From Psychroflexus salarius (GTDB lineage Bacteria > Bacteroidota > Bacteroidia > Flavobacteriales > Flavobacteriaceae): a stretch of DNA of 64,000 bases. The position numbers and the translations under genes were made by a program. The DNA lies in NCBI RefSeq assembly GCF_900129035.1, contig NZ_FQTW01000001.1, forward strand, positions 62,001-126,000. The letters run 5' to 3'. Each line of letters opens with the position of its first letter. Positions within the stretch are counted from its first letter, which is position 1. Of this stretch, positions 484-7,506 are shown in pieces. Under the pieces are notes generated by a model that was given only the letters and a program-made list of their open reading frames with translations, ran no database searches and was not told the origin of the DNA.

Positions 484-1608
484 TTGAATTCAAAAGTATG
501 CATTATTGGTGGTGGTTTAGCAGGTCTTACAGCTGCAATACATTTAAGACTTGACGGTTTTGAAGTTGTTGTAATTGAAAAAAATGAGTATCCACAACAT
601 AAAGTCTGTGGAGAATACGTTTCTAATGAAGTTAAAGCTTACTTATCAAGTTTAGGCTTGTCAAAATTTTTAAAGCAGACACAAGCTATTAATAAACTTC
701 AATTATCTAATGTAGACGGTCAACTTTTTTCAGCTGAATTACCACTCGGAGGATTTGGTGTGAGTCGTTTTGCACTGGATCATGCTTTATTTAAACATGC
801 CAAGCGGCTTGGGATTGAAGTCATCAAAGCTAAAGTAACACATTTTGAATCTACTCACACAGGCTTTAAAACGTACTTTAAGGATTCTTGTTTAAACTCA
901 AAATTTTTATTGTTAGCTCATGGAAAACGCTCAAATCTTGATAAAAAGCTTAATCGCGCATTTATCCAAAAAAAAAGCCGATGGATTGGTGTGAAAGCGC
1001 ATTATAACTTAGATGAATTTCCTGCTAATGAAGTCCATCTTCATAATTTTAATGGTGGCTATTGTGGCTTGTCGAAAACTGAATCTAAGGCTGTTAATTG
1101 CTGCTATTTAATTTCAGCTGAAGTGTTTAAGCAATATAAATCGATAGAAGATTTTAATAAAAAGGTACTCAGAAATAATAAACATCTTAATCACTTTTTA
1201 CAAGAAGCTAATTCTATATTTGAGTCACCATTAGCTATTGCACAAGTTTCTTTTGCAAAGAAATCAACTTCAAATTTTAATGCTTTAATGTTAGGTGATG
1301 CTGCTGGGTTAATTCACCCTTTATGTGGCAACGGCATGGCAATGGCGATACATTCTGCTAAAATAGCAGCTGAATCTGTTAAATTAGTCGACCAAAATTC
1401 TCTTCAGATGGATCAATTATCAACCTATTACAATCAACAGTGGCAATCATCGTTTAAGAAGCGTTTATATTATGGGCGTATTTTTCAGAAGATTTTACTA
1501 AATCAAAGATTAACAACTATTGGGTTAAATTTACTTCAACCATTACCATTTTTATTACCAAAACTTGTTCGTTTAACACATGGCCAACCCATTCCAGCTT
1601 ATGATTAG
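484..1608 (+). CDS. FAD-dependent oxidoreductase (geranylgeranyl-reductase/monooxygenase-like) of the type III PKS operon
   Basis: A 374-residue flavoprotein. An N-terminal Rossmann fold carries GGGLAG at residues 9-14 with the ADP-ribose-binding Glu of VIEKN about 20 residues later. A C-terminal GDAAGLIHPLCGNG motif closes the FAD site as in the geranylgeranyl-reductase and PHBH-type families. The only start placing the dinucleotide fold correctly is TTG at 484; the nearest ATG (461) is out of frame. It is the first gene of a tight operon with a methyltransferase and a type III polyketide synthase. Flavoprotein plus methyltransferase plus type III PKS is the composition of known phenolic-lipid pathways such as srsABC of Streptomyces, where the flavoprotein hydroxylates the resorcinol ring. 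Oxidation of the polyketide product is therefore the likely role, by inference. The substrate is unknown. Confidence 0.8.
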   Translation: MNSKVCIIGGGLAGLTAAIHLRLDGFEVVVIEKNEYPQHKVCGEYVSNEVKAYLSSLGLSKFLKQTQAINKLQLSNVDGQLFSAELPLGGFGVSRFALDHALFKHAKRLGIEVIKAKVTHFESTHTGFKTYFKDSCLNSKFLLLAHGKRSNLDKKLNRAFIQKKSRWIGVKAHYNLDEFPANEVHLHNFNGGYCGLSKTESKAVNCCYLISAEVFKQYKSIEDFNKKVLRNNKHLNHFLQEANSIFESPLAIAQVSFAKKSTSNFNALMLGDAAGLIHPLCGNGMAMAIHSAKIAAESVKLVDQNSLQMDQLSTYYNQQWQSSFKKRLYYGRIFQKILLNQRLTTIGLNLLQPLPFLLPKLVRLTHGQPIPAYD

Positions 1609-2308
1609 TACAAATCAACGTTCATCTCAAGCAGAAATTATGGATGCATTTGATTTTAAAGGAGAAGATTTAGTCAATGTACTTCAACATATCGATCAAA
1701 TAAATTCGAGTTTAGGTGGTCATCGCGTCACGATAAATGGTGTCAAGCAATTACTGAAAAATTCTAAAAAAGAAGTAATCACGATTGCTGACATTGGTTG
1801 TGGAAGTGGCGCAAGTTTAAGAGCCATTAGAAAATGGGCTAATAAGCAAGATTTTCAATTAAAATTGATTGGTATTGATGCCAATCCGCATATTATTGAA
1901 GTAGCCAAATCACTAACTTCAGCTAAGTTAAATATCTCTTATCAGTGTTTAGATGTGTTTTCGGCAGAATTTAAGGCTTTAAGCGTTGATATTGTATGTT
2001 CAAGTCTCACCTTTCATCATTTTAAAAATGAGTCAATTATACAATTACTTCAGCAATTAGAAAAGCAAGTAAAACTAGGAATCATTATTAACGATTTACA
2101 TCGTCATAAATTAGCTTATCGCTTATTTCAATTGTATAGTTTATGCTTTGTTAATTCTCAAATAGCAAAAAAAGATGGATTAATTTCGATCTTAAGAGGG
2201 TTTAAATCAAAGGATTTTAAGTATTTTTCAAAACAATTGAATAATGCAACTCAATTGAAATGGTTCTGGGCATTTCGTTATCAATTTTTAATACAAATTC
2301 ATGGTTAA
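1601..2308 (+). CDS. SAM-dependent class I methyltransferase of the type III PKS operon
   Basis: About 235 residues. The SAM-binding motif I is IADIGCGSGASL, with the acidic residue ending strand 2 in LIGIDANP and a SSLTFHHF segment in the motif IV position. An upstream ATG at 1580 exists, but ATG 1601 overlaps the stop of the flavoprotein gene by only 8 bases and fits the coupling style of this operon. The 3' end overlaps the start of the polyketide synthase gene (ATG 2301) by 8 bases, so translation is probably coupled. By position it should methylate a hydroxyl or carbon of the polyketide product, as methyltransferases beside type III PKS genes do elsewhere. O- versus C-methylation cannot be decided from sequence. 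Confidence 0.8.
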   Translation: MISTNQRSSQAEIMDAFDFKGEDLVNVLQHIDQINSSLGGHRVTINGVKQLLKNSKKEVITIADIGCGSGASLRAIRKWANKQDFQLKLIGIDANPHIIEVAKSLTSAKLNISYQCLDVFSAEFKALSVDIVCSSLTFHHFKNESIIQLLQQLEKQVKLGIIINDLHRHKLAYRLFQLYSLCFVNSQIAKKDGLISILRGFKSKDFKYFSKQLNNATQLKWFWAFRYQFLIQIHG

Positions 2309-3350
2309 AATTACGCAAGTTTCTACTCAACTCCCAAAATATACTAGTTCTACTGCTGAAGTAATTCCGTATATAGAAGATTGGTTAGAGCATCAAGATG
2401 AACGATTTAAACGTAAAGTTATCAAGATCTTTGAAGGTGCTGCTGTAGATCGTCGTTATGCTATTATGCCACCAAATCAGGTATTTACATCAACGAGCTT
2501 TGAAGAAAAAAATAAAATTTATCAAACTGAAGCTAAACAACTTGGTCACCAAGTTTTAGAAAAAGCACTCTTAAAATCGAATTGGGATCCTAAAAGTTTA
2601 GATTATATTATTACGGTAAGCTGTACAGGAATTATGATTCCTTCATTAGACGCTTACCTTATTAATAGCCTTGGTTTAAAACAAGATATTGTCCGTTTAC
2701 CTGTTACTGAAATGGGTTGTGTTGCAGGAGTTTCCGGTATTATTTATGCTAAACAATTTTTAGAGAATCAGCCCAATAAAAGAGCTGCGGTTATTGCTGT
2801 TGAAGCACCCACAGCAACTTTGCAACATTCAGATTTTAGTATGGCAAATATGGTAAGTGCCGCCATTTTCGGTGATGGTGCAGCTTGTGTACTCATGAGC
2901 TCAGAAGAGCAGGCAAGTGGTGCTCAAATTTGCGATGAGCAGATGTATCATTTTTACGACCAAACCCACATGATGGGTTTCGATTTAACGAACAATGGCT
3001 TAAAAATGATTCTTGATATTGCCGTTCCTGATACTATTGCAACGCATTTTCCAGAAATTATTCATCCTTTTTTAAAGCGTAATAATTTATCAATTGAAAC
3101 AATTGAGCACCTCATTTTTCATCCTGGCGGAAAGAAAATTATTCTAACTGTCGAAGATTTATTTAAAGATTTGGGCAAAAATATTAATGCAACAAAATCA
3201 GTGCTTAAAAATTACGGTAACATGAGCAGTGCTACTGTTTTGTTTGTTTTAGCGCAAATCATGCAAGATTCGCCAAAAAAAGATGATTATGGTTTAATGT
3301 TAAGCTTTGGACCAGGATTTACAGCACAACGACTTTTATTAAAATTTTAA
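2301..3350 (+). CDS. Type III polyketide synthase (chalcone/alkylresorcinol synthase family)
   Basis: 349 residues, usual length for the family. The catalytic triad is complete: Cys140 in TEMGCVAGVSG, His274 in FHPGGKK and Asn307 in NYGNMSSAT. The region VSCTGIMIPSLDAYL and the C-terminal LSFGPGF are hallmark motifs. Such homodimeric enzymes condense a starter acyl group with malonyl units and cyclise the chain to resorcinols, pyrones or related rings without an ACP of their own. Here the gene is embedded among its own fatty-acid-type enzymes and an ACP, suggesting an ACP-borne or CoA-borne long acyl starter made in situ (inference). It is followed after one base by the reductase gene. The enzyme class is certain; the product is not. 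Confidence 0.93.
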   Translation: MVKITQVSTQLPKYTSSTAEVIPYIEDWLEHQDERFKRKVIKIFEGAAVDRRYAIMPPNQVFTSTSFEEKNKIYQTEAKQLGHQVLEKALLKSNWDPKSLDYIITVSCTGIMIPSLDAYLINSLGLKQDIVRLPVTEMGCVAGVSGIIYAKQFLENQPNKRAAVIAVEAPTATLQHSDFSMANMVSAAIFGDGAACVLMSSEEQASGAQICDEQMYHFYDQTHMMGFDLTNNGLKMILDIAVPDTIATHFPEIIHPFLKRNNLSIETIEHLIFHPGGKKIILTVEDLFKDLGKNINATKSVLKNYGNMSSATVLFVLAQIMQDSPKKDDYGLMLSFGPGFTAQRLLLKF

Positions 3351-3351
3351 T

Positions 3352-4110
3352 ATGAAACCAACAGCGTTAATTATTGGCGGTAGCCAAGGTTTGGGGTATG
3401 CAAGTGCTAAAGAATTAGCTCTACGTGGATTTAATTTGATGATTATACATCGAGATTCTAGAGCTTCAAATGAAGAAATCACTCAAAAATTTGATGAATT
3501 ACGTTCATTTTCAGTTGAAGTGACTAGCCATAATTTTGATGCTACACGCAACGATAAAATAGAAACATTTATAACTCAACTTCAGCCAGATTTGCAATTC
3601 GATTTGGTCTTACATTCAATTGCAAAAGGTAATTTAAAAAATGTTGTTGGTGAAAATGCCTTAACCCCAAACGATTTCCAAACAACCATACAGGCTATGG
3701 CGATTAGCTTTTATACTTGGGCTAATCAACTTGTGCATCATCAAAAAATGAAAAATCCAAGTCAACTTTTAGCCTTCACTAGTGAAGGAAACTCAAAAGT
3801 TATACCTCAATATGGCGCTGTTTCAGCAGCCAAAACGGCTTTAGAAAGTATTATGAAACAGCTTGCGGTAGAGCTTGCACCTTACGGCATCAGAGCCAAT
3901 TGTATTCAAGCTGGTTTAGTTGATACAAAAGCTTTACAGCATTTCCCAGCATACAAGCAACTTAAGTCTTACACCATAAAACGTAACCCTTATAAACGCT
4001 TAACAATAGCAGAAGATGTCGCAAAAGTGGTTGGTTTGTTAAGTGATTCAGCTGCACGCTGGATAAACGGTAGCATTATAAAAGTTGATGGTGGCGAAAG
4101 TTTAGTTTAA
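3352..4110 (+). CDS. Short-chain dehydrogenase resembling enoyl-ACP reductase III (FabL/FabI type)
   Basis: 252 residues with the cofactor motif GGSQGLG at 9-15. The catalytic Tyr154 and Lys161 are separated by six residues (YGAVSAAK), the spacing of enoyl-ACP reductases FabI and FabL rather than the YxxxK of ordinary ketoreductases. The C-terminal part (GLVDTKALQHFP and VDGGESLV) follows the pattern I remember for Bacillus FabL. It also has an LHSIA segment as in FabI. I therefore favour reduction of an enoyl thioester with NADPH in the operon's chain-building cycle. No classical ketoreductase gene is present, so the housekeeping FabG may supply that step, or this enzyme has a different substrate. 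Confidence 0.8.
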   Translation: MKPTALIIGGSQGLGYASAKELALRGFNLMIIHRDSRASNEEITQKFDELRSFSVEVTSHNFDATRNDKIETFITQLQPDLQFDLVLHSIAKGNLKNVVGENALTPNDFQTTIQAMAISFYTWANQLVHHQKMKNPSQLLAFTSEGNSKVIPQYGAVSAAKTALESIMKQLAVELAPYGIRANCIQAGLVDTKALQHFPAYKQLKSYTIKRNPYKRLTIAEDVAKVVGLLSDSAARWINGSIIKVDGGESLV

Positions 4111-4120
4111 ATTAAAATGT

Positions 4121-4573
4121 ATGCAGAAGTATCAATCTATTTTAGACCAATTACCCTACCAACATCCCTTTTTGTTTGTTGATGAAATTACTGAGATTGA
4201 TTTAAACTCAATAAAAGGTTCTTACTTTTTTCATAATCAACACGATTTTTACAAAGGCCATTTTAAAGGTTTTCCTATTACACCAGGCGTTATTTTAACT
4301 GAATGTGCAGCTCAAATAGGTTTAGTTAGTTTTGGGATTTATCTATTAAAAATGGAAGGTAAATCGACTAAAAATTTAAACTGCGTGATGACTTCAACTG
4401 AAATTGAATTTTTAAAACCTGTTTTTCCGAATGAAACCATAAAAGTTGAAGCTGAAAAGCAATACTTTAGATTCAACAAATTAAAATCTTCCGTAAAATT
4501 ATATAATTCGGTTGGTGAGCTGGTTTTAAAAGGTCAAATTAGTGGAATGATTTCAACTGAAAAACATGAGTAA
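4121..4573 (+). CDS. FabZ-like 3-hydroxyacyl-ACP dehydratase
   Basis: 150 residues with a hot-dog fold signature. LPYQHPFLFVD near the N-terminus matches the FabZ opening, and GHFKGFPITPGVILTECAAQ carries the catalytic dyad His47 and Glu61. It should dehydrate 3-hydroxyacyl thioesters in the elongation cycle that feeds the polyketide synthase. It lies between the FabL-like reductase and the ketosynthase and overlaps the ketosynthase start by 8 bases. Family certain, substrate inferred. Confidence 0.88.
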   Translation: MQKYQSILDQLPYQHPFLFVDEITEIDLNSIKGSYFFHNQHDFYKGHFKGFPITPGVILTECAAQIGLVSFGIYLLKMEGKSTKNLNCVMTSTEIEFLKPVFPNETIKVEAEKQYFRFNKLKSSVKLYNSVGELVLKGQISGMISTEKHE

Positions 4574-5834
4574 TCGCGTAGTTATAACAGGTCTAGGTGT
4601 TGTAGCGCCAAATGCCATTGGTAAAACTAATTTTTTGCATGCGCTTAAAAATAAAACTAACGGTATTAAATTTCATCAAGACTTAGCTGAAAAAGGTTTT
4701 AGCTGTCAAGTTGCTGGAACACCAGAAGTTAATAACAACCTCTTAAACCAGTACTTTACAGCATTAGAACAAAAAGGCTTATTGGCAAGCGGACTTATTT
4801 ATGGTGGAATTGCAGGGCAAGAAGCTTGGTTTGACGCTGGTTTAAAGATTAATAAATCGACTGATTATGATGCAGGCATTATTTTTGGTACAGGAATTTT
4901 AGGCGTTGAAAAGTTAAAAGAAGCTTTTCATTTAATTGATAATCATAGAGTTAGGCGGCTTGGTAGCACAAGTGTTTTACAAACCATGGCAAGTGGTGTT
5001 TCTGCATTTTTAGGCGGAAAACTAGGTTGTGGAAATTGGGTAACATCTAACTCATCTGCATGTACAACAGGCACTGAAGCCTTTCTAATGGCTTATAATC
5101 ATCTTAAACTTAATAGAGCTAAACGAATGTTAGTTGGTAGTTGTAGCGATTCAGGCGCTTATGTTTGGGGTGGATTTGAAGCTTTACGAATTTTACCTTA
5201 TCAATACAATCAACATCCTGAAGAAGCCTCAAGACCAATGAGTAAAAACGCACAAGGTTTTGTGCCAAGTAGCGGTGCTGGCGCGCTGGTTTTAGAAACT
5301 TTAGACTCAGCTCTAGAAAGACAAGCGCCAATTTATGCAGAAGTTTGTGGAGGTGCTATTAATTCTGGTGGTCAGCGTCATGGTGGTAGCATGACGGCAC
5401 CTAATTCAAAAGCTGTTCAACAATGCATTTTGCAATCACTTAACAACGCTCAGGTTGATGCTGCTGAAATAGATACTATTAATGGCCATTTAACAGGCAC
5501 AATAATGGATGCTGTTGAAATCAATAATTGGCGTTCCGCTTTAAATTTAAGTGGCGAAAAATTTCCTTTAATCAATTCTTTAAAAAGTCATATTGGCCAC
5601 GCCTTAGCTGCTGCTGGAAGTGTAGAGTTAGTCGCTTCAGTTTTGCAAATCAAGCATCAATTTGTGTTTGGAAACCGAAATTTACAACCCATTCATCCAG
5701 ACATATTAAATCAAATTTCGAAAGATACCATACCCGATCAAACACAATCAACTGCTATCAAATACCTTATTAAGGCCAGTTTTGGCTTTGGTGATGTTAA
5801 TGCTAGTACTGTTTTAAAACAATTTGAAAAATGA
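4566..5834 (+). CDS. Beta-ketoacyl-ACP synthase (KAS I/II, FabF-like)
   Basis: 422 residues. The thiolase-fold catalytic set is complete: Cys166 in SSACTTG, His308 in NGHLTGT (the usual form is NAHGTGT, so the neighbours of this His are altered) and His345 in KSHIGHALAAAG. It should extend an acyl-ACP by two carbons. Within this operon it probably builds or extends the acyl starter handed to the type III PKS. The altered NGHLTGT motif suggests a specialised, non-housekeeping ketosynthase. The gene overlaps the dehydratase upstream and the membrane-protein gene downstream (ATGA), so it is translationally coupled on both sides. Confidence 0.9.
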   Translation: MSNRVVITGLGVVAPNAIGKTNFLHALKNKTNGIKFHQDLAEKGFSCQVAGTPEVNNNLLNQYFTALEQKGLLASGLIYGGIAGQEAWFDAGLKINKSTDYDAGIIFGTGILGVEKLKEAFHLIDNHRVRRLGSTSVLQTMASGVSAFLGGKLGCGNWVTSNSSACTTGTEAFLMAYNHLKLNRAKRMLVGSCSDSGAYVWGGFEALRILPYQYNQHPEEASRPMSKNAQGFVPSSGAGALVLETLDSALERQAPIYAEVCGGAINSGGQRHGGSMTAPNSKAVQQCILQSLNNAQVDAAEIDTINGHLTGTIMDAVEINNWRSALNLSGEKFPLINSLKSHIGHALAAAGSVELVASVLQIKHQFVFGNRNLQPIHPDILNQISKDTIPDQTQSTAIKYLIKASFGFGDVNASTVLKQFEK

Positions 5835-6058
5835 ATAAAATAAAGCGTAATTACTGGTTATTCGGTGCTTTAGGCACATTACTATTAGGTTTTGGTTTAT
5901 GTGCGTTGTTAGAAAGTGCCTTTTTAAAACACAATCCAGACATACCAACTTGGCAATGGATTGGTGCAGGGACTTTGTCATTAATCATCATTATGGCGGG
6001 CATCAATTTTTTATTTGCTAGTTTCGAAAATAAATTAAAACTGAACAGAAATGACTAA
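5831..6058 (+). CDS. Small two-helix membrane protein of the PKS operon
   Basis: 75 residues with two predicted transmembrane segments (about 9-28 and 42-63) joined by a short polar loop containing PDIPTWQW, and a charged C-terminus. I recognise no family. It starts inside the ketosynthase stop (ATGA overlap) and its end overlaps the ACP gene by 8 bases, so it is an integral part of the operon and not a chance frame. It might anchor the biosynthetic enzymes at the membrane where a lipid product would accumulate, but nothing in the sequence proves this. Confidence 0.8.
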   Translation: MNKIKRNYWLFGALGTLLLGFGLCALLESAFLKHNPDIPTWQWIGAGTLSLIIIMAGINFLFASFENKLKLNRND

Positions 6059-6299
6059 AGAAGACATTATTCAAAAATTAAAACGTATTGTTGAACCTTA
6101 TGTTAATCATACAGAAAATTTTAATAACTTAACTGAAACATCAGATTTTATAAAAGATTTAGAAATTAATTCGGCTAATTTAGTTGATGTAATTTTAGAT
6201 ATTGAAGATGAGTTTAACATCAGAATTGAGAATGATGATATGGAACAAATGCTAAATGTTAAAAAAAGCGTTGAAGTGATTCAGCAAAAGTTGAAGTAA
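6051..6299 (+). CDS. Dedicated acyl carrier protein
   Basis: 82 residues, acidic, four-helix ACP pattern. The phosphopantetheine attachment Ser is Ser41 in EINSANLVDV, followed by the helix II pattern VILDIEDEFNIRI. The usual DSL is replaced by NSA, a divergence common in ACPs of specialised pathways. It should carry the growing acyl chain between the ketosynthase, dehydratase and reductase of this operon. The next gene, two bases downstream, encodes a phosphopantetheinyl transferase that could activate it. Confidence 0.88.
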   Translation: MTKEDIIQKLKRIVEPYVNHTENFNNLTETSDFIKDLEINSANLVDVILDIEDEFNIRIENDDMEQMLNVKKSVEVIQQKLK

Positions 6300-6301
6300 T
6301 T

Positions 6302-6826
6302 ATGCTCGGTAATGATATTGTAGATTTAACAGAAGCTAAAAAACAATCGAATATCTTTAGACCGCGTTATTTTGATAAAACACTAACAGCTTCAGAACAA
6401 TATATCGTTCAACAGTCGGTCAATCCTGAATTATGTTTTTGGAAAATTTGGACTTGTAAAGAAGCAGTTTATAAGTCAGCCCAACGTGAATTCGGTTTTA
6501 AATCTTTTTACAATCCACTTCAATTTAATATAGAATGTTTAAAAGAGTTTCAAGCTAAGGTTTGCTACAATTATAATATTTATAATGTTGATATAGAGAT
6601 AAATAATAATTTTATTTATAGTTTCACTTCAAATGATTTTAAAACTGATTATTGTATTCTATCATCACAATTTTCAGTGCTTCAACAAATTTCAACCAAG
6701 TTTAATCAACCGATTTCATTAAATAAAAATGAAAATGGTTTGCCATATTTAAAATTACTTTCACATGATAAAATTTGTTCAATAACACATCATGGTGCTT
6801 ATTTTGCAATTCAATATTTATGTTAA
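6302..6826 (+). CDS. 4'-phosphopantetheinyl transferase superfamily protein
   Basis: 174 residues. The N-terminal GNDIVDL and central WTCKEAVYK (Lys53, Glu54, Lys58) are the two metal and CoA binding motifs of the AcpS/Sfp superfamily. It should transfer phosphopantetheine from CoA to Ser41 of the adjacent ACP. The size lies between AcpS (about 125) and Sfp (about 220). It is the last gene of the operon; the next gene follows after 50 bases and has its own promoter-like box. Confidence 0.85.
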   Translation: MLGNDIVDLTEAKKQSNIFRPRYFDKTLTASEQYIVQQSVNPELCFWKIWTCKEAVYKSAQREFGFKSFYNPLQFNIECLKEFQAKVCYNYNIYNVDIEINNNFIYSFTSNDFKTDYCILSSQFSVLQQISTKFNQPISLNKNENGLPYLKLLSHDKICSITHHGAYFAIQYLC

Positions 6827-6876: not shown

Positions 6877-7506
6877 ATGGACAAGTTTTTTTACATCTTA
6901 TTATTTATTGGTTTTTTTGGTTACGCACAAGATAAAGATTTACCTCAATCGAGTACAAAATCTAAAGGCGCTATTTTAAGTAAAGGAAAGGTTTCTAGTG
7001 GGAATAATTTATTAGGTATACCTAACCGTCCAAAAGTTAAGAATTTATTTGCCAAACCTGAAAAAGGTATCAATTTTAAACCAAAAGAACAATTTACTAA
7101 CCCGAGTGATTTATACACTAAAAAACTTAATGCCAAGCCTGAAGATGAAAATAACCGGATGAAAGAAGAGTTTGGTAACGACATGTATTTAGGTGATTTT
7201 GTGACCACTTCAGATAAAATGGTTTTTTTATGTCGAGATCACATGATGTTTGATGGCGATCGCGTACAAGTTCGCTTAAACGGTGAAATTTTAATTCAAA
7301 ATTTATTACTCGAAAACGCCTACAAAGAAATTACCATACCACTTGAAGTTGGGTTTAATAAAATTGAGTTTGTTGCTTTAAATCAAGGAGAATCTGGGCC
7401 TAATACAGCTGAGTTGAAGGCTATTGATAATGGTAACTTAATTACTAGAAATATATGGAATTTATTAACTGGCATAAAAGCATCTGCTGTTATCGTTAGA
7501 AATTAA
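6877..7506 (+). CDS. Secreted protein of unknown function
   Basis: 209 residues beginning with a short hydrophobic signal peptide ending near YAQD. The middle is Lys/Pro/Asn rich, and the last 100 residues (VQVRLNGEILIQNLLLE, then a GFNKIEFVALNQG segment) look like an immunoglobulin-like beta-sandwich. I do not recognise a named family and find no catalytic motif. It sits downstream of the PKS operon but has its own promoter-like box, and converges on recQ with only 6 bases between the stop codons. A cell-envelope location is likely. Confidence 0.7.
   Translation: MDKFFYILLFIGFFGYAQDKDLPQSSTKSKGAILSKGKVSSGNNLLGIPNRPKVKNLFAKPEKGINFKPKEQFTNPSDLYTKKLNAKPEDENNRMKEEFGNDMYLGDFVTTSDKMVFLCRDHMMFDGDRVQVRLNGEILIQNLLLENAYKEITIPLEVGFNKIEFVALNQGESGPNTAELKAIDNGNLITRNIWNLLTGIKASAVIVRN

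Follow-up and report, generated by a model that had tools for sequence, protein, structure and literature searches.

The window analysed here, a 64,000-nucleotide stretch of the Psychroflexus salarius genome (positions 62001-126000 of contig NZ_FQTW01000001.1; genome size 2.53 Mb, completeness 99.99%), carries on its forward strand, at positions 484-6826, a nine-gene operon. In it a type III polyketide synthase (T3PKS), a methyltransferase (MT) and a flavin adenine dinucleotide (FAD)-dependent oxidoreductase (FMO) stand together with a ketosynthase (KS), a dehydratase (DH), a short-chain dehydrogenase/reductase (SDR), an acyl carrier protein (ACP), a 4'-phosphopantetheinyl transferase (PPT) and a small membrane protein (MEM). 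The elongation genes belong to the T3PKS, and we consider it reasonably likely that the operon makes an aromatic lipid, in the first place a methylated and hydroxylated alkylresorcinol that could be converted to an alkyl hydroquinone or quinone, with its chain drawn from the cognate acyl-ACP.

In the pathway that we propose, the PPT would arm the dedicated ACP, and an acyl chain would be elongated on it by the KS, a ketoreductase borrowed from housekeeping fatty acid synthesis, the DH and, in operons that have one, the FabL-type SDR. FabG of the general pathway would be the natural candidate for the borrowed ketoreductase. The T3PKS would then receive the finished chain from the ACP, add malonyl units and close the ring by aldol condensation, while the MT would methylate and the FMO hydroxylate the ring; the product would be an alkylresorcinol or quinone, or else a pyrone.

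Retention of the elongation genes with the synthase

Orthologs of the T3PKS were found in 33 of 395 Bacteroidota genomes (598-699 bits; the next match scores 241), and KS orthologs scoring at least 704 bits occur in exactly the same 33. SDR orthologs (at least 387 bits) are confined to 13 of the 395, all within the T3PKS-bearing set, and are found in none of the 16 T3PKS genomes of genus g31. Closer to the window, T3PKS, KS and SDR were searched in 60 relatives, its own genome included, and ACP and DH in 31 of these, namely 27 of the genus (again counting its own) and four other T3PKS-bearing members of the family; family members without the T3PKS (G028-G032 and G034) were left out of the ACP and DH search. 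T3PKS, SDR and DH orthologs share the same 26 of the 31 genomes; the KS is present in those 26 and in G006 and G007, and the ACP in those 26 and in G007, completeness being 80% for G006 and 52% for G007. Three members of the genus (G003, G010 and G017) lack all five genes, and the other 29 of the 60 relatives have no T3PKS, KS or SDR ortholog.

That T3PKS and elongation genes share a function is best supported, in these data, by genomes that keep them all although they are no longer linked. The genes lie in two to four places in nine of the 26 T3PKS genomes (G002, G009, G011, G012, G014, G015, G019, G023 and G026), as FMO-MT-T3PKS with or without the SDR, as DH-KS (still with the T3PKS in four genomes) and as ACP-PPT, in some cases accompanied by MEM and by a further gene, X10, described below; T3PKS, SDR, DH, KS and ACP are nonetheless all retained in the nine. 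G018 and G024, whose genes are divided between two contigs at contig ends, were counted as unsplit, the T3PKS of G018 being a fragment of 69 residues at the end of a contig. KS, DH and ACP form a second, dedicated set, in keeping with the first-pass annotation, which had called the ACP and elongation enzymes dedicated. The housekeeping set stands apart in the window's own genome, with FabF on contig C4 beside a second ACP, LpxC-FabZ on C18, which is the window's contig but here outside the window, and a second PPTase on C21.

Several points in these data weigh against our proposal. Co-loss alone says little, because linked genes can be lost together without a shared function. The three split patterns correspond to three clades on an LpxC-FabZ tree (built without G017, which gave no match, and G010, which has a broken frame), and since two of these clades are sisters (97/96), independent splitting may amount to only two events. 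Finally, a KS at 535-603 bits occurs without a T3PKS ortholog in five of the 395 genomes (G155, G445, G134, G183 and G104). These five genomes, together with the absence of the SDR from 62 of the 80 named loci compared below for gene order, are what could be cited if the elongation genes served another pathway and merely shared the operon, as the first-pass annotation had allowed. We judge that to be very improbable, as the T3PKS and KS match 33 for 33, the three genus members without the T3PKS are also without SDR, DH, KS and ACP, and all five parts are kept in the nine genomes with unlinked genes; as far as the relatives were searched, the elongation genes follow the T3PKS.

A distant relative of the SDR (best score per genome 229-296 bits) is present in 90 of the 395 genomes, in single copy in 89 of them, and is perhaps a housekeeping enoyl reductase there; the 90 include G155 and G445, the genomes with the DarB-linked loci discussed below. 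The KS frame is broken by a stop in L190 (6415-7692, genome G023) and in G007 (contig C136, 414-1682), both incomplete genomes, which may reflect decay or assembly error.

The operon and its gene products

The nine frames are all present on one strand as first annotated, with spacings of -29, -8, +1, +10, -8, -4, -8 and +2 bases. The lipoprotein gene upstream of position 484 has the opposite orientation, which makes the FMO gene the first of the operon. Pfam matches above cut-off were obtained for eight of the nine proteins, all except MEM, for which there was no Pfam match, and none of the NCBIfam matches listed for the operon proteins attains its cut-off, which marks the proteins as divergent within their families. 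The enzymes are all discrete proteins, and the cluster contains no multidomain type I protein of the kind that supplies the acyl chain in the ars system of Azotobacter.

The T3PKS (2301..3350) matches the Pfam families Chal_sti_synt_N/C at 70.8 and 70.3 bits (cut-off 27), and the Cys-His-Asn triad on which type III synthases depend is represented by C140, H274 and N307, invariant in an alignment of 12 sequences. Its structure model (pLDDT 85.8) finds its best Protein Data Bank (PDB) matches in Pks11 and CylI, both at a TM score of 0.92, CylI being 26% identical to it in sequence. Assignment as a DarB-type resorcinol former was rejected (16 bits against a cut-off of 550), as was assignment as DpgA, the 3,5-dihydroxyphenylacetyl-CoA synthase, which is the best NCBIfam match but, at 164 bits, far below its cut-off of 425. 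DpgA is a malonyl-only enzyme.

The FMO (484..1608, TTG start) belongs to the geranylgeranyl-reductase/flavin-monooxygenase superfamily and is a putative ring hydroxylase; it matches Pfam FAD_binding_3 at 57 bits and the NCBIfam models GG-red-SF and QhpG at 107 and 98 bits, both below cut-off. Among solved chains it comes closest to FADH2 halogenases and to monooxygenases, yet W-x-W-x-I, part of the halogenase motif, is absent; a monooxygenase is therefore preferred to a halogenase, although not proven. The MT (1580..2308) is a class I S-adenosylmethionine-dependent methyltransferase (Pfam Methyltransf_25, 53 bits), and its homologs sit in PKS-MT-FMO triad operons of other Bacteroidota.

Within the cassette, the SDR (3352..4110) matches Pfam adh_short_C2 at 142 bits and NCBIfam FabL at 148 bits, below the equivalog cut-off of 328. 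Its Y154-x6-K161 motif, invariant among 12 aligned sequences, and its nearest solved chain, FabL (3oic), point to a FabL-like enoyl-ACP reductase and not a ketoreductase, for which the motif would be Y-x3-K. The DH (4121..4573) is FabZ-like (Pfam FabA-like, 48 bits; NCBIfam FabZ, 65 bits, below the cut-off of 113), the solved chains that it matches are FabZ-type dehydratases, and the His and Glu that act in such enzymes are H47 and E61, invariant in 18 aligned sequences. The KS (4566..5834) is FabF-like (Pfam ketoacyl-synt N/C, 82/86 bits; NCBIfam FabF, 253 bits, below the cut-off of 494), and its residues C166, H308, K340 and H345, which correspond to the catalytic Cys-His-His-Lys of ketosynthases, are invariant across 12 sequences. 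MEM (5831..6058) is a 75-residue protein with two hydrophobic stretches. The ACP (6051..6299) lies just above the Pfam PP-binding cut-off (22.4 against 20.8 bits), with S41 in E-I-N-S-A-N as its likely attachment site, and the PPT (6302..6826) matches Pfam ACPS at 42 bits. The set had been described as the operon's own miniature fatty acid synthase; KS, DH, enoyl reductase and ACP are indeed present, but neither the gene content nor the motif of the sole SDR provides a ketoreductase within the operon, and the set is to that extent incomplete.

Gene order was compared in the best 80 of at least 585 confirmed stretches with a relative of the T3PKS in named genomes, a choice that makes the counts lean towards close relatives. 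FMO-MT-T3PKS-DH-KS-ACP-PPT, with the SDR inserted in some, lies on one strand within 8 kb in 68 of the 80 loci: 57 of these have the seven-gene core without the SDR, eight have the SDR after the T3PKS and three (L063, L082 and L087) have other or further SDRs. The remaining 12 comprise eight with the SDR in which the PPT went undetected and four that are cut or broken: a contig end truncates L069 and L099, L094 also borders on a contig end and its MT went undetected, and L085 has a broken KS, with ACP and PPT undetected. By gene, the counts are 80 of 80 for FMO, T3PKS and DH, 79 for MT and KS, 77 for ACP, 69 for PPT and 18 for SDR. MEM was found in none of the 80 named loci, nor was X10, and the loci in which orthologs of the two were found all belong to the window's genus, MEM standing there beside the ACP or after the KS. 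Hence the general core consists of FMO, MT, T3PKS, DH, KS, ACP and PPT, with the SDR as an optional part; a conserved order does exist among relatives, as the first-pass annotation required, but it is that of the seven core genes and not of all nine.

The operon copy in L099 is of flavobacterial type (69% T3PKS identity), although its contig, 5.3 kb long, is assigned to a Nitrotoga metagenome-assembled genome; the contig has probably been mis-binned. SDR-DH gaps of at least 1.3 kb interrupt the operon in L066 (9823-13173), L088 (9826-14425, with further gaps) and L136 (5075-6506).

Mosaic origin of the operon

The operon is a mosaic of an FMO-MT tailoring pair, a distinct T3PKS clade and an acyl-making cassette that seems to be portable. 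For the first two of these parts, we compared 19 loci with distant T3PKSs from 18 of the 128 genomes, among the 395, whose only T3PKS is a distant one, a sample that was selected and not random (L159, an ortholog locus, was excluded). Six of the 19 (L151, L152, L153, L156, L158 and L160) combine PKS, MT and FMO without any cassette gene, the FMO match in L151 being poor (36 bits, 18% identity), and both MT and FMO are absent from the other 13. Identity to the window proteins in L152, L153, L158 and L160 is 36-41% for the FMO, 32-36% for the MT and 28% for the PKS. On the PKS tree the cassette-linked synthases form one clade (100/100), and the six triad PKSs, together with two non-triad PKSs, are separated by a 100/98 split. 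As the window and the triad loci share the FMO-MT pair while their PKS clades are separate, the pair associates with two PKS clades.

The cassette is met in other surroundings as well. A related SDR-DH-KS-ACP-PPT set lies divergent from DarB and DarG in L196 (8779-15107) and L197 (8158-14332), where DarB scores 635 and 615 bits, respectively (cut-off 550); in dialkylresorcinol and flexirubin clusters of this type the ring former is DarB, whereas the window operon uses a type III PKS. Near family-2 glycosyltransferases, L198 (8600-13794) carries SDR-DH-KS-ACP, and L199 (9047-12186) and L200 (8609-11733) carry DH-KS-ACP, which may represent a third use of the cassette. All of these KSs group apart from the FabF of the window's genome on the KS tree with middling support (87/89); that genome's own KS-like L163 and L165, below the search threshold, were left out of this tree, and the own rows that were kept form very long branches.

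A more ambitious reading, which we advance tentatively as a possibility, is that in Bacteroidota a portable acyl-ACP starter cassette of SDR, DH, KS, ACP and PPT has been joined to at least two unrelated ring formers, a T3PKS and DarB, so that chain-defined aromatic lipids arise by two independent chemistries. On this reading the T3PKS clade would depend strictly on acyl groups carried by its own ACP, and the presence or absence of the enoyl reductase would determine whether the chains are saturated or unsaturated.

Proposed product and neighbouring gene

The flavoprotein-methyltransferase-T3PKS set, which the first-pass annotation had linked to phenolic lipids, agrees in make-up with phenolic lipid, polyketide quinone and hierridin operons (PMC9927152, PMC8086630, PMC10896814). 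The alkylbenzoquinones made by T3PKS-MT-oxidoreductase operons of Actinobacteria function as electron carriers (PMC9927152), and in the pkqABC and srs operons of that phylum a resorcinol is converted to a quinone (PMC9927152, PMC5916927); these are described as three-gene operons, to which the operon studied here adds a dedicated ACP, KS, DH and PPT, together with an enoyl reductase in some genomes. Operons of the same composition account for hierridins in cyanobacteria (hidABC; PMC8086630) and, in Planctomycetota, for alkylresorcinols, as shown by expression of a three-gene operon (PMC10896814). Both unite a methyltransferase, an FAD oxidoreductase and a type III PKS as the window does (PMC8086630, PMC10896814), but, in a comparison by description and not by sequence, they differ from it in gene order and in taking their acyl starter from outside the operon. 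The type III PKSs of Azotobacter ars are clustered with type I enzymes (PMC5916927), which are large, unlike the discrete type II proteins of the window. CylI of the cylindrocyclophane pathway, alike in fold to the window T3PKS, is reported to take CoA- and ACP-bound substrates, and acyl-ACP is used by some type III PKSs (PMC8086630); the partners of CylI, unlike those encoded here, are type I PKSs.

An ordinary T3PKS operon, in which DH, KS and ACP are a chain-length add-on without any special mechanism and the synthase is loaded from the common acyl pool, would overlap in part with the pathway that we favour; we think it rather unlikely, if deserving of serious attention. T3PKS clusters are frequent antiSMASH calls in Flavobacteriaceae (PMC7440613, PMC9323603), and the PKSs of Planctomycetota have been proposed to draw on the general acyl-CoA supply (PMC10896814), but a dedicated ACP and PPT would be superfluous in such an operon, and an ACP ortholog is present in 26 of the 26 T3PKS genomes searched for it.

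Closure of a lactone in place of an aldol ring would yield long-chain alpha-pyrones, decorated by the MT and FMO, and neither a resorcinol nor a quinone. This outcome, which we regard as unlikely, has in its favour that Pks11 of M. tuberculosis, an alkylpyrone synthase by name, is the nearest solved relative of the T3PKS by both sequence and fold; Pks11 has also been implicated in quinone precursors (PMC5916927). CylI, however, whose structures were solved with acyl-SNAC, beta-ketoacyl-SNAC (SNAC, N-acetylcysteamine) and resorcinol according to their PDB titles, is equally near in fold, and the FMO-MT pair resembles the make-up seen beside alkylresorcinol synthases. A rule that distinguishes resorcinol from pyrone formation by a single residue, Trp281 of ArsB, has been put forward (PMC9927152); F227 of the window T3PKS corresponds to Trp in Pks11 and Leu in CylI in alignments without ArsB and ArsC, and has no bearing on that choice.

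It is distinctly unlikely, in our view, that what the cassette makes, be it a second acyl chain or an unsaturated or branched acyl group, is attached to the ring product at a later stage, with the PKS starting from acyl-CoA or from malonyl-CoA alone. Flexirubin offers a precedent, its chain, proposed to be made by fatty acid synthase-like enzymes, being joined to a separately made resorcinol (PMC3992019), and the malonyl-only DpgA is, as noted above, the best if insufficient NCBIfam match of the synthase. Against this, no acyltransferase or ligase was found among the operon genes or in the core of the relatives, and the nearest PKSs in fold are named for alkylpyrones or were solved with acyl substrates.

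The alkylresorcinol that we favour has difficulties of its own, to be set beside those of the retention data: the operon encodes no ketoreductase, the nearest solved structure bears the name of an alpha-pyrone synthase, and the triad PKSs of Planctomycetota are thought to start from acyl-CoA (PMC10896814). Moreover, the window PKS shares only 27-28% identity with the triad-only PKSs of Bacteroidota and falls outside their clade, which makes a product assigned by analogy with them weak.

T3PKS clusters account for 9% of predicted clusters in a survey of Flavobacteriaceae and are among the commonest there (PMC7440613). They are listed without a named product in Flavobacteriaceae (PMC7440613), Aquimarina (PMC9323603), Reichenbachiella (PMC10752948) and Fulvivirga (PMC12565237). 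No account of the cassette or its product was found in the available portions of the open-licence literature, and it may have been reported elsewhere. Judged by gene content, the operon would be a T3PKS phenolic-lipid operon of known kind, with the acyl-ACP starter cassette as the new addition. If our proposal is correct, aromatic membrane lipids or quinones of a family not yet described are produced across a large group of environmental bacteria, and the way in which a type III PKS obtains a chosen chain is accounted for by a cassette that stands on its own. The cassette further connects the route through a type III PKS with that through DarB, and it offers a clean gene set for reconstitution.

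Scans for promoters and terminators yielded hardly more than chance would, with 31 promoter-like sites against 32.2 expected and 7 terminator-like sites against 4.0 (standard deviation 2.3). Downstream, X10 (6877..7506, forward strand) starts 50 bases past the end of the PPT gene, and its membership of the operon is tentative. Genus relatives keep it beside the PPT, including some in which ACP-PPT lie apart from the T3PKS; in L231, L233, L234 and L239 it stands beside MEM-ACP-PPT, away from the T3PKS. It encodes a secreted protein with a C-terminal beta-sandwich, and its structure model (pLDDT 68), which had no PDB match at E<=0.001, resembles a carbohydrate-binding module only weakly in fold (E 0.007).

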